NCBI RefSeq assembly: GCF_000427445.1
Contig: NZ_KE386496.1
Span: forward strand, 2,743,504-2,807,503
From: Methylocapsa acidiphila B2
GTDB taxonomy: Bacteria > Pseudomonadota > Alphaproteobacteria > Rhizobiales > Beijerinckiaceae
Length of the DNA: 64,000 nucleotides
Reading direction: 5' to 3'
The position numbers and the translations under genes were made by a program. Under the pieces are notes generated by a model that had not been told where the DNA came from, searched no databases, and saw only the letters and a program-made list of their open reading frames with translations. The first letter of the stretch is position 1. Every line of letters starts with the position of its first letter. Positions 13,972 to 59,624 of this stretch are shown in pieces.

Positions 13972-14697
13972 TTACCAGTGACGTCCCGATCCGAGGGAGC
14001 CGCTAGCCTGATAGCCGTCTTCCGCCCGCCCAGGAAAGGGCTGGATCGCCGCGACGCAATTGAAGGAATGTGGTGGATTGAGCGATCCATTGCCGCAGAC
14101 ATAATAAGCGTCGATATTCACAGTCCTAGCGGCGAGAGCATGAGGCGCCGAATCGCCGCTGCATTGATAGCTGTTCGCGCCGGCATGGACCGTTCCCTTG
14201 ACGTGAAACCCATAGGCGCCGCCAGCGGTCGAATTGCCTTCATGGGTCGGTCGGAACCAGCTATTATAGGTGCCGGCGTCGCCATAAGCTTCCTTCAACG
14301 CCGAGGCGTTGGTGATCGTCAGCGTTTTCACGATTCCAACAGGCGCGACGCTGCCTCCGGCTCCGGTCGGCTGGGTCTGGTTTTTCAGGTAAAGAGCATC
14401 GACCGTTAGACTTACCGAGTCGGGGTCCGCATTGGTCGAGGTTCCGCTCACATCGATGACTTGCCCCCAAAAATCCGAAGGATCGGCGCAAGCCCCGTCA
14501 TAGGTGTAGAGAATCACATCGACGGCATTGAAAGAATCCTCAAATGCGGGCTCGACATGAAAGCCGACCGTCAGCCGTATATTCTTGCCCAGCGCGAATG
14601 TCGCGGGTAGGACCCGAGTTTCATGGCCATAGGCGGACGCCAAGGCGTTGACGGCGAGCACAGCCGCGCTCGTCATCGCCAATTTTCTAAATTTCAT
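13972..14697 (-). CDS. Secreted protein with predicted N-terminal His, paralogue 1 (unknown function)
   Basis: A 241-aa protein of unrecognised family. A GGAGGG Shine-Dalgarno supports the ATG at 14697. Residues 1-24 form a signal peptide, and cleavage after AYG would leave His25 (HETR) as the first residue; cleavage after ASA, leaving YGHE, is also possible. Shared with paralogue 2 (18288-18992) are HE-S/T-R, VGFHxEPAF, a YLYTYD/ILYTYD strand, YNSWF-R/K-P, AYGFHVxGxxHAGANSYQC and VCGNG. The conserved His residues and an N-terminal His suggest metal binding, as in CopC- or LPMO-like histidine braces. That is inference from pattern only. Conserved Cys residues probably form a disulfide. Both copies flank the peptide exporter region on the same strand. 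Confidence 0.7.
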   Translation of the reverse strand: MKFRKLAMTSAAVLAVNALASAYGHETRVLPATFALGKNIRLTVGFHVEPAFEDSFNAVDVILYTYDGACADPSDFWGQVIDVSGTSTNADPDSVSLTVDALYLKNQTQPTGAGGSVAPVGIVKTLTITNASALKEAYGDAGTYNSWFRPTHEGNSTAGGAYGFHVKGTVHAGANSYQCSGDSAPHALAARTVNIDAYYVCGNGSLNPPHSFNCVAAIQPFPGRAEDGYQASGSLGSGRHW

Positions 14698-15167
14698 AAT
14701 TGTCCCTCCGTTTTATTTTCGTTGAGTACATCTCGTCCTCACAGCCCGGGATTAGGCCCGGTCCCACTCCGCGTCTCAGCGCGAATTCCATTCGCGCGCC
14801 GCCCATCGCTTCCAAATCCACATTGATCTACATTGTTGACTTGATGAGCCACACAGGTCGACGGCGACGCGATAGGCAGGGCCCGTGCGCGTTAGGACTC
14901 TTTGTGCGGAATTGGCGACGCGATTCGCAATCGTTCTTGGTTTTCTTTTTCAGGGGGCAAAGCCTCGCGAAAACCGGCGCAACAATGCGCCTCAGCTAAG
15001 GGGTAAACGCGCCAAGCGCGCGCAACCCGACAGATTTTCGCCAATTTTTTGAAAAGGTTTTGTCTCTTTCAAATCGCGCCGAGATAAAAAATTGGACCAG
15101 GCTCAGCGCTAGTCGCCCTATCGACGCTTGTAGCCGACTCGCGAAAGTCCTCGCGCGCACACAGGGG
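14698..15167. other. Gene-free region between the STN gene and secreted paralogue 1
   Basis: About 470 bases with no supported gene. Immediately upstream of the 14697 start is a strong GGAGGG ribosome-binding site, so the promoter of paralogue 1 should lie in the lower-GC part near 14700-14850. The 15000-15120 portion has A/T runs (CCAATTTTTTGAAAAGG) but no clear terminator hairpin that I could confirm. Confidence 0.4.
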
Positions 15168-15695
15168 CTAGTCGGCGGGCCATCCTTGCCGCGCGCGAGC
15201 CGCATTCAGCGCATGCGCCGGCCGTTGTTGCGGGCGCGCATTTCGTTGGTCGATCCAACGCCCATGCGTGGTCGGCCGCCCGCTGGAATTGCCTTTGGCC
15301 TCCTTTGAAGGGCTGGAAACCTTGCCTGTCGATCCATTTACGTCGTAGACAATCACGCCCACGCCGTCTTCTGTTGCGCTAATAACAAAGTTATAGTCCT
15401 GAAGCAGGCGTGAAAGCACATAGCTAAGGGTTCCGACATAGGAGCCCGAGACGGAACGATCGAGGCCCGTCGGCAATCGGTAATGTAGAGCGTAAGCCTT
15501 GTTCAGCGACTCGAGAACCTGCCCTAAGGGATCATTTTGAGCTTCGAGCCGCACCGCATTCGCGTCGCCGGAAACGACGACCTCGGCCATCGCCAGCGTA
15601 GCGCGGCCGCACAAGACGGCGCCTGCGAGGAAAAGCACTTTAACGGCGCCGGCCTTATTGCTTTTGATGCTTTTGCTTGAAGTCACGGCGTTCAT
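15168..15695 (-). CDS. Free-standing periplasmic STN-domain (secretin/TonB short N-terminus) protein
   Basis: A 175-aa exported protein. After a signal segment (VKVLFLAGAVLCGRATLAMA), residues about 45-120 form an STN domain: NDPLGQVLESLNKAYALHYR, SGSYVGTLSYVLSRLLQDYN and a final EDGVGVIVYD strand. In siderophore receptors such as FecA this domain sits at the N-terminus and signals to an anti-sigma factor. Here no beta-barrel follows, and the rest is a Ser/Arg/Gln-rich tail of about 50 residues. The ATG overlaps the exporter stop codon by ATGA, so the two are translationally coupled, tying it to peptide export. It may be a soluble sensor or periplasmic binding module. Function is unknown. Confidence 0.78.
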   Translation of the reverse strand: MNAVTSSKSIKSNKAGAVKVLFLAGAVLCGRATLAMAEVVVSGDANAVRLEAQNDPLGQVLESLNKAYALHYRLPTGLDRSVSGSYVGTLSYVLSRLLQDYNFVISATEDGVGVIVYDVNGSTGKVSSPSKEAKGNSSGRPTTHGRWIDQRNARPQQRPAHALNAARARQGWPAD

Positions 15696-57657: not shown

Positions 57658-58407
57658 GTGACGGGCGGACCAGACGCGCAATCCGAGAGGCGGCCGGTCA
57701 TCGCATGCTCCGCCTTGACCAAGACCTATGATCTCGGCGTCGAAAAGGTGCGCGCCTTGCGGGGCGTGACTTTTTCGATCGCGCGCGGGGAATTCGTCGC
57801 CATCATGGGCGCATCCGGGTCCGGCAAATCGACCTTGGCCAATCTTCTCGGCGCTCTCGACACGCCGACTTCGGGAGAACTCATGATCGACGGACAATCG
57901 GTCGCGGGCCTCTCGAGCGACGCGCTCGCGCGGCTGCGCAACCACGACATCGGCTTCGTGTTTCAGCAATTCAATCTGCTGCCGCGGATGACCGCGCTCG
58001 AGAATGTCATGCTCCCGCTCCTTTACGCGCCGCGTGGACGCAAGAACGGAGCCGTCGACGCCCGCGCAAGGCTCGAAGAGGTCGGGCTCGGCCGACGCAT
58101 GGATCACAGGCCGGCGCAACTTTCCGGAGGCCAGCAGCAGCGCGTGGCGATCGCCCGGGCTCTGATCAACGATCCCCGCATCGTGATCGCCGATGAGCCG
58201 ACCGGCGCGCTGGACACGAAGACCTCGCAGGACATTATGGAGCTTTTCCTGAAGCTTCACGCGGAAGGGCTCACCATCATCCTCATCACCCACGAGCCGG
58301 ACATCGCCGCCTATGCCGGCCGACTGCTGCGCTTTTCCGACGGCGAGCTCGTCGAAGACCTGACCCGGCGCCCGCAGAATCAGGGTCGAGAGAGAGCGCG
58401 ATCGTGA
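57658..58407 (+). CDS. macB: MacB-type ABC transporter ATP-binding protein
   Basis: A 249-aa ATPase of the MacB/LolD class. The Walker A is [10 protein letters not shown], the Q-loop is [13 protein letters not shown], the signature is [15 protein letters not shown] and the Walker B is [12 protein letters not shown]. It uses a GTG start directly abutting the MacA stop and overlaps the permease gene by GTGA, so all three are translationally coupled. In E. coli MacB and in PvdT the ATPase and permease are one polypeptide; here they are split. Together with the adaptor it forms a tripartite-type efflux pump, presumably for the peptide. Confidence 0.9.
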
Positions 58408-59624
58408 GCCTCGGCGCCTTGATCGCGGAAGCCGTCGCCGCGCTGCGGCTCAGCGCCTTGCGCAGCGCCCTCACGGCGATCGGCGTGATCATCGGCGCGG
58501 CTGGCATCGTCGTCCTTGGCGCCGCGGGCGGCGGCGCCAACGCCAAGATCGAGGAGCAGCTCAACGCGATGGGGACCGAAAATCTCATCGTGAACGCGGT
58601 CAAGGTCGAGAACGCCGGCGCGCACGGTCCGGTCGCGCTGTTGACCGACGAGGACGCCAAGGCGATCGCCGAGCGCGTGCCTGAGATTCAATTCGTCTCG
58701 CGGGAGGTCTACAGCAATGTAACTCTCGTCGCAGGGAACGCGAGCTGGACCACGCAATATTGGGGCGTCGACGCCTCTTACGCCGACGTGTTTAACGTAA
58801 AAATCGCTGATGGTCGTTTTCTCGACGCCGACGACATTCGCTCCGGCGCCAAGGTGGTCGTGCTCGGCCCGACGGTCGCGCAAAAACTGTTCGGCGACCA
58901 ATCCCCCATCGGCCGCTCGCTGCGCATGGGCGGCGCTCCTGTGCAGGTGATCGGCGTGCGCGCGAAGCTCGGCTTCGTCGGCGGACAAGACTACGATAAT
59001 TTCATCATCACGCCGATCACGACGGCGCGCGCGCGCTTGCCGAAAGCCGCGCAGGCGAGCCCGCACGAGCTCGACCAAATCGACACCAAGGTCTTTCCCG
59101 GCTCGGATAGAACAGCCGCCAAGGACGCGATTTTGGCGTTGCTGCGCGAACGCAAGCATATCCCCGCCAGCGCGCAAGACCGTTTCACGGTTTTCGATAC
59201 GGCGCAATATGTCGAGTTGATGAACGCCACCCATTCAACATTGAGCTGGCTGCTCGCGGCGACAGCCGCGATCTCGCTCGTCGTGGGCGGCGTCGGCATC
59301 ATGAACATCATGCTCGTCTCGGTCACCGAACGGACCCGCGAGATCGGTCTGCGCCGGGCGATCGGCGCCCGCCAACGGGACATTCTCGCGCAGTTCCTGA
59401 CCGAGGCCATCGTCCTTTGCGCCGCCGCGGGCTTCGTCGGCCTCGCGCTCGGCGTCGCCTTGAGCGCGTTGGTGGCGCGGACATCGGGTTGGCCTCTGAT
59501 CGTCACGCCGCAAAACATGTTGCTGGCTTTAGCGGCTTCGGTCGGGGTCGGCGTCGTCTTCGGCTATGTGCCGGCGCGCAAGGCTACAGCGCTCGATCCG
59601 ATCGAAGCGCTGCGTCACGACTGA
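58404..59624 (+). CDS. MacB-type ABC transporter permease
   Basis: A 406-aa permease with the MacB arrangement: one N-terminal membrane segment (about 20-42), a large periplasmic core domain (about 45-270; GTENLIVNAVKV, DADDIRSGAKVVVLG, GQDYDNFIITPI) and three C-terminal membrane segments. The coupling motif is ERTREIGLRRAIGARQRDIL. It corresponds to the C-terminal half of one-chain MacB/PvdT. It is the last gene of the plus-strand biosynthetic run and is convergent with the acyltransferase gene at 59742. Confidence 0.9.
   Translation: MSLGALIAEAVAALRLSALRSALTAIGVIIGAAGIVVLGAAGGGANAKIEEQLNAMGTENLIVNAVKVENAGAHGPVALLTDEDAKAIAERVPEIQFVSREVYSNVTLVAGNASWTTQYWGVDASYADVFNVKIADGRFLDADDIRSGAKVVVLGPTVAQKLFGDQSPIGRSLRMGGAPVQVIGVRAKLGFVGGQDYDNFIITPITTARARLPKAAQASPHELDQIDTKVFPGSDRTAAKDAILALLRERKHIPASAQDRFTVFDTAQYVELMNATHSTLSWLLAATAAISLVVGGVGIMNIMLVSVTERTREIGLRRAIGARQRDILAQFLTEAIVLCAAAGFVGLALGVALSALVARTSGWPLIVTPQNMLLALAASVGVGVVFGYVPARKATALDPIEALRHD

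Follow-up and report, generated by a model that had tools for sequence, protein, structure and literature searches.

What is made by the large non-ribosomal peptide synthetase (NRPS) gene cluster at positions 13972-59624 of a 64,000-nucleotide stretch of Methylocapsa acidiphila B2, and what would it be used for? The whole stretch (G000:C2:2743504-2807503) is called the window here and belongs to a genome of 4.10 Mb in two contigs. Methylocapsa is a methanotroph genus, and the own genome (G000) possesses a gene of the pMMO/AMO family (PF02461, 366 bits). The host is most likely a Methylocapsa methanotroph of the same genus as M. aurea and M. palsarum, and not a member of Methylocystaceae, the family whose genomes an earlier note made from the sequence had proposed for comparison. 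The cluster was compared in 15 Methylocapsa genomes including the own one and in 397 genomes of the order. Homologous clusters were found in M. palsarum NE2 (G198), in M. aurea KYG (G199, split over contigs) and in two other genomes of the genus (G185 and G202); G126 and G203 named below are also genus members. With a probability of about 70%, the cluster is responsible for the biosynthesis and export of a β-hydroxyhistidine lipopeptide metallophore which would be deacylated after export and recycled. The genes themselves, a set of His-type hydroxylase, interface domain and adenylation (A) domain, conservation in the genus and linkage to a receptor in the relatives are read from sequence and carry this reading.

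β-Hydroxyhistidine is described as a chelating group of non-ribosomal peptide metallophores, made by IBH_His enzymes, in the available text of PMC12971057. In the window, a TauD-type hydroxylase gene is situated between the genes of NRPS1 and NRPS2. For relatives of this TauD, a single genome from each of 84,980 species was searched; 216 stretches encoded one, and the best 80 were kept with flanks of up to 10 kb. These loci, the window and the stretches of four relatives together hold 126 TauD copies, M. palsarum being counted twice (G198 and L040), and 125 of them were placed in a tree. At a distance of 0.3-2.6 kb downstream, 74 of the 126 copies have a His-type A domain as the nearest one (69 with exactly the code DSALIAEVW), 11 an Asp-type and 8 another type, and for 33 none was found. 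One clade of the tree, with 76 leaves and a support of 0.99, contains the TauD proteins of the window, G185, G198, G202, M. aurea, Pseudomonas corrugata and P. thivervalensis. A His-type module follows 73 of its members, another type follows one and none follows two, while all 11 Asp leaves are positioned outside along with 30 leaves without a module, 7 of other types and a single His leaf. Counted by locus, the best TauD is followed by a His-type module in 69 of 80.

The first condensation (C) domain of NRPS2 showed the same association. It lacks the HH motif, as do 70 of the 74 module-initial domains preceding His-type A domains, and falls within an interface clade of 57 domains (support 0.968), of which 51 precede His-type and 6 precede Asp-type A domains. 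Both the interface domain and the TauD of the window share their clades with the loci of P. corrugata (L067) and P. thivervalensis (L045), strains which we take to be corrugatin-type producers, and the His-module code DSALIAEVW is common to all of them. Judged from clade position, TauD, interface domain and His module are the predicted β-hydroxyhistidine route of corrugatin-type siderophores. The loci of this type (corrugatin, ornicorrugatin and histicorrugatin) carry the His-type TauD, the interface domain and the DSALIAEVW A domain in the same order as the window, along with a start resembling a fatty-acid--AMP ligase (FAAL) and a module for 2,4-diaminobutyrate (Dab). In these loci His comes directly after the FAAL, whereas in the window it is the third residue and is followed by an epimerization (E) domain, N-methyl-Thr, Ser, Thr and a basic residue. 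Unlike them, the window also possesses an acylase, a GT1 glycosyltransferase and two paralogous exported proteins, HET1 and HET2.

The three NRPS genes are uninterrupted frames in which profile search found C, A, carrier-protein (T), methyltransferase (MT) and thioesterase (TE) domains arranged in seven amino-acid modules. The best FAAL model scored 573 bits on the whole of NRPS1, with its best stretch at residues 20-578 and below the cut-off of 775. The A-domain codes, with amino-acid names which are our assignment, are DVWHVSLID (Ser) and DIWEISADD (Dab) in NRPS1, DSALIAEVW (His-type) and DFWNIGMVH (Thr, with the methyltransferase) in NRPS2, and DVWHVSYID (Ser), DFWNIGMVH (Thr) and the terminal DVWECGMVD in NRPS3. 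The Glu and Asp of this last code suggest a basic residue, ornithine (Orn) or Dab. Behind the His module there is an E domain (motif found, class assigned by eye), and a dual C/E-type motif, HHLMAAEGD, was recognized by eye in NRPS3, which also bears the TE motif GWSLGG. The C domain after the first Ser module groups with C domains that follow E domains; this module itself has no E domain. The predicted chain is acyl-Ser-Dab-(β-OH)His-(N-Me)Thr-Ser-Thr-(Orn or Dab). Its linear deacylated form has a calculated [M+H]+ of 776.390 when it ends in Orn and 762.374 when it ends in Dab, with 162.05 to be added for each hexose; with Orn, the C12:0, C14:0 and C16:0 acylated forms would be at 958.557, 986.588 and 1014.619. 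This order was not seen in the clusters of G185, G198 and G202, and that of M. aurea is only partly readable.

The gene content of the cluster recurs in the relatives at 37-79% protein identity, and the cluster is therefore not a product of chance; the small exported protein, at 32% and in one relative only, falls below this range. NRPS1, TauD, NRPS2, the acylase, the SyrD-type exporter, GT1, the Dab aminotransferase and MbtH are present in all three near-complete relatives (G185, G198 and G202), and NRPS3 and HET in two of the three. Homologues in G185, G198 and G202 are 62-64% identical for the Dab aminotransferase, 69-79% for MbtH (the sole PF03621 match in the own genome), 62%, 56% and 42% for the exporter, and 62%, 37% and 38% for GT1. 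Since GT1 homologues occur in all four clusters readable that far (own, G185, G198 and G202), a sugar is possibly added and the product may be glycosylated.

A TonB receptor and a PepSY protein are encoded inside the cluster in G185 and G202, where their families were confirmed by Pfam; in other genomes the pair was recognized by its similarity to these proteins. The two genes adjoin the Dab aminotransferase gene in G202 and the homologues of the MacB-type permease (68-69% identical) in G185 and G199. Nearly full-length matches to the G185 receptor with at least 62% identity were found in all five genomes possessing the acylase and in one of the ten others (G126). The hypergeometric probability of this co-occurrence is 0.002, with the 62% threshold chosen after seeing the list and kinship uncorrected. 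Because of the TauD and interface clades and the receptor and PepSY linkage in the relatives, metallophore function, already proposed in the earlier note, can be called more strongly than was possible there. The corresponding pair of the own genome is at G000:C2:1163806-1167437.

As a separate observation, a region of G126 (G126:C3:655001-735000, L179-L182) contains receptors, PepSY, MacB-type permeases and HET in a genome without a TauD or acylase match, and for this reason G126 could be a non-producing user of a foreign metallophore. The own plasmid also carries another metal-uptake locus (G000:C1:160001-180000, L178) with two TonB receptors, a PepSY protein and an RND pump.

The acylase belongs to the Ntn-hydrolases of the penicillin-acylase type. 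Its Ser282 is the predicted start of the β chain, as the β chains in PDB align from residue 282, and a His is found at β position 23. The motif GSNAW...NDMHL is present in the window protein, and GSNAW also in G185, G199 and G202. Its best solved relatives are a D-succinylase (193 bits) and glutaryl-7-ACA acylase, with PvdQ at only 34 bits. Orthology with PvdQ was rejected: the PvdQ model gave 33 bits against a cut-off of 950, and none of the 15 genus genomes exceeded the cut-off. Acylase matches (E<=0.001) were found in 6 of the 15 genus genomes, five of them with at least 47% identity (own, G185, G198, G199 and G202; 64-67% in the relatives and 47% in G202), while G203 gave only a short match of 29%. 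In the order, 55 of 397 genomes gave some match, and apart from the own protein none of the matches listed exceeded 39% identity. The acylase gene comes directly after the last NRPS gene in the window, G185, G198 and G199, and is located within the cluster in G202.

For deacylation, cell location, metal, sugar and the activity of each enzyme we infer a route of the following kind. The FAAL would load a fatty acid, and NRPS1-3 would assemble the acylated heptapeptide given above. Bound to the NRPS2 interface domain, TauD would hydroxylate the carrier-bound His, and the E domain would then invert the hydroxylated residue. The SyrD/PvdE-type exporter would transfer the peptide, still acylated, into the periplasm. 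There the anchored Ntn-hydrolase would strip the fatty acid, a step suggested by the position, family and conservation of this enzyme. The MacAB-type pump and an outer-membrane channel would release the peptide, and the TonB receptor and PepSY pair coded elsewhere would recover the metal complex. The features on which this route is based are listed in Table 1.

Table 1. Features of the cluster, with window positions, strand and basis of assignment.
Feature	Position	Strand	Basis or remark
HET1, 241 aa, exported; mature N-terminus predicted as His-Glu	13972..14697	-	no Pfam match
Small exported protein, presumed STN-like (by eye)	15168..15695	-	no Pfam/NCBIfam match; 32% homologue beside SyrD in G185 only
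SyrD/PvdE-type ABC peptide exporter, inner membrane	15692..17464	-	TIGR01194 455 bits, cut-off 286
HET2, paralogue of HET1	18288..18992	-	47% identical to HET1
MbtH-like protein	19238..19471	-	PF03621 E 1e-22
L-2,4-diaminobutyrate aminotransferase	19550..21088	-	PRK06938 677 bits, cut-off 671
GT1 (macrolide-type) glycosyltransferase	21109..22524	-	PF00201/PF06722; MGT 96 bits, below cut-off
NRPS1	23012..33091	+	3359 aa, FAAL-ACP-C-A(Ser)-T-C-A(Dab)-T-C
TauD Fe(II)/2-oxoglutarate hydroxylase, His type	33088..34164	+	PF02668; clade position
NRPS2	34161..43235	+	3024 aa, interface-A(His)-T-E-C-A(Thr)-MT-T
Interface (degenerate condensation) domain of NRPS2	34182..35444	+	no HH motif; clade position
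First copy of the 1437-bp exact repeat, in the Thr A domain of NRPS2	39989..41425	+	identical to 47937-49373
NRPS3	~43228..53898	+	~3550 aa, C-A(Ser)-T-C(dual C/E-like)-A(Thr)-T-C-A(Orn/Dab-like)-T-TE
Second copy of the 1437-bp exact repeat, in the Thr A domain of NRPS3	47937..49373	+	identical to 39989-41425
Ntn-hydrolase acylase (S45) with N-terminal hydrophobic segment	53828..56275	+	Penicil_amidase PF01804 543 bits
MacA-type periplasmic adaptor	56323..57657	+	profile search, below NCBIfam MacA cut-off
MacB-type ATPase	57658..58407	+	profile search, below NCBIfam MacB cut-off
MacB-type permease (MacB_PCD + FtsX)	58404..59624	+	profile search, below NCBIfam MacB cut-off

The pyoverdine pathway comprises a FAAL start, a Dab aminotransferase, MbtH, a PvdE-type exporter, an acylase and a MacAB-like pump, and its chromophore is formed from D-Tyr and Dab. 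All these parts have a counterpart in the window, and in this respect the parts list of the earlier note stood: three intact NRPSs with a FAAL-like start (the FAAL score being below its cut-off), the aminotransferase, MbtH and exporter through their family matches, and the three pump genes. Its list had left GT1 and the two HET paralogues unmentioned. The code read-out agrees with the residue chain given there. Its statement that a Tyr-derived chromophore module is missing also agrees with our data, as no Tyr-type code was found among the seven A domains, and none of the scanned window proteins is of the PvdMNOP type, as the note had said. The acylase, called PvdQ-like there, is a penicillin acylase with an N-terminal hydrophobic segment but comes from another branch of that family than the pyoverdine enzyme. 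The match to the pyoverdine route consequently holds for the presence and place of the parts and not for kinship of the acylases, and since the acylase is not PvdQ, the pyoverdine logic is an analogy. The cluster thus joins a β-hydroxyhistidine chelator route to a non-PvdQ acylase. Its parts are of known kinds and their combination looks new. Among the literature matches listed on methanotroph siderophores and metallophores, chalkophores and the ATCUN motif, judged mostly by title, no description of this cluster was found, and likewise, by title, no publication on Methylocapsa metallophores. In the alphaproteobacterial methanotroph Methylosinus trichosporium OB3b, putative siderophore clusters with expression dependent on copper and carbon source are described in the available text of PMC12811070, where the plasmid cluster is reported as most similar to crochelin. 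The cluster of the window is a testable candidate for metal scavenging in Methylocapsa.

Several observations weigh against the proposed metallophore route. No TonB receptor is encoded in the window, and the own receptor orthologue is 1.6 Mb away from the cluster. G202 lacks NRPS3 and HET and has an RND pump in place of MacAB. The clade rule has exceptions, as the His-followed TauD of L099 is placed outside the clade and that of L106, inside it, precedes another code. As the acylase differs from PvdQ, what it acts on can only be guessed, and the GSNxW pattern was not found in the G198 acylase, whose active site is therefore putative. Between GT1 and NRPS1, none of the Fur- and Irr-type patterns tried gave a match; elsewhere, single half-sites occurred in G202 and at 18990-19240 of the window. 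No counterpart of the DUF3617 gene (17604-18191, -) was found in the relatives' stretches, and the STN-like protein has a weak one only. With a single classical bidentate chelator in the predicted product, there is no obvious hexadentate site for Fe(III). A true Lys/Orn monooxygenase was found neither in the own genome (best 29 bits) nor in G185 (26 bits), as against 356-374 bits in G198, G199 and G202. The modules with the code DQE[AP]FGTIT present in relatives were considered as hydroxy-ornithine loaders, yet G185 showed no true monooxygenase. Iron is taken as the default metal, and a lanthanide is a possibility.

The HET proteins deserve consideration before the metal is discussed further. 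HET1 homologues are 63-69% identical in G185, G198 and G199, and those of HET2 69-71% in G185 and G198. The family was found in 6 of the 15 genus genomes, with other members at loci L128, L129, L125-L127, L130 and L132. None of 9 members matched a Pfam family, and the PDB sequence search gave no useful match (best E 0.39). His30-Glu31 (HET2 numbering) is invariant in all 9 aligned members and would be the mature start after the predicted signal peptide, as assigned by eye. A His brace at this His is a guess, and a structure model from the two window sequences reached a pLDDT (predicted local distance difference test) of 45. Two other exported proteins were noticed. Beside a HET homologue in genome G201, a 338-aa protein (L128:256-1272, -) appears β-barrel-like by eye, and its mature N-terminus may be His. 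Inside the M. palsarum cluster, a protein with predicted N-terminal His (HECRN...; L031:17336-18157) is situated beside a PepSY protein and an ABC-2-like transporter set.

One alternative is a copper metallophore (chalkophore) with a masked site. The ATCUN motif is an amino-terminal Cu(II)/Ni(II)-binding motif with His at position 3, and deacylation would expose H2N-Ser-Dab-(β-OH)His, with the HET proteins as periplasmic copper partners. His is third after Ser-Dab in the window, G185, G198 and M. aurea (L039), while it is first in all 26 non-Methylocapsa loci with a FAAL-like domain before TauD. As the methyltransferase belongs to the Thr module, residues 2 and 3 would keep unmethylated amides, and the combination of a pMMO-family gene with the lack of an Orn hydroxylase in the own genome and the invariant His-Glu of HET point in the same direction. 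Against copper, G202 has Ser-Dab-Dab-His, with His at position 4, and no HET; the His is probably D since an E domain follows its module; the receptor and PepSY genes of the relatives have FecI/FecR-like neighbours (labels by eye), which are typical of iron; and the confidence of the HET model is low. Copper is unlikely on this evidence. Slightly less likely still is the full version, in which the acylase is a chemical switch: the acyl cap would block the N-terminal amine, its periplasmic removal would create the copper site, and the chalkophore would feed the copper methane monooxygenase with HET as periplasmic copper partners. If true, Methylocapsa would use a non-ribosomal, acylase-unmasked chalkophore for its methane monooxygenase.

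Two further alternatives concern the lipid. The product might be an ordinary lipopeptide siderophore keeping its acyl chain, with the acylase recycling or degrading it after uptake. Lactuchelin of Pseudomonas lactucae is a model for this, as it consists of an acyl group and seven amino acids, is made with CAL, TauD, an E domain and a TE, and retains the acyl chain; it differs from the window product in containing hydroxylated Asp and N-hydroxy-ornithine in place of hydroxylated His (available text of PMC12904278). The position of the acylase gene, next to the last NRPS gene in four clusters and within the fifth, argues against a lipid-keeping product, which is about as improbable as copper. 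The least probable alternative, to which we give little credence, is a lipopeptide pro-drug (antibiotic or signal) activated by the acylase. Acyl-capped NRPS products cleaved in the periplasm are known for antibiotics, and GT1 shows a weak similarity to enzymes of macrolide self-protection, but the His-type TauD and interface set and the co-occurrence and linkage of the receptor favour the β-hydroxyhistidine metallophore.

Apart from the product, the assembly line showed a pair of identical A domains, the two Thr copies of NRPS2 and NRPS3. One A-domain pair is likewise identical in G185 (1439 bp, at G185:C1:1193979), G198 (1712 bp, at G198:C33:45587) and G202 (1698 bp, a Dab pair, at G202:C1:1871817), while the Thr A domains of different genomes are only 60-70% identical. 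Seven same-code pairs were found within stretches: four are these exact repeats, that of L115 shares 299 bp, and two (with the third Thr copy, in G185) have no exact run of 24 bp. The 313 pairs of different code share at most 239 bp exactly. Each repeat block begins where the C domain ends or within the linker between C and A, and runs beyond motif A8 (in G202 to the carrier-protein motif); the methyltransferase is not affected. The available texts of PMC4256081 and PMC9205934 describe concerted evolution of NRPS domains, and four exact cases within a single genus suggest that gene conversion occurred repeatedly. Homogenisation during assembly is a conceivable source of the identical copies, but the four genomes concerned were assembled into 2, 1, about 80 and 1 contigs (own, G185, G198 and G202). 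NRPS engineering could draw on these four natural cases, in each of which a complete A domain was copied between exact borders.

Downstream of the pump, a GNAT gene (59742-60896) and a GT2 gene (60890-61741) were judged outside the cluster because they have no homologue in the relatives' stretches. The own genome has a second NRPS-containing locus (G000:C2:2179136-2192160, L177), which encodes two large proteins of 3007 and 1334 aa that are 34-36% similar, in part only, to the NRPSs of this cluster.

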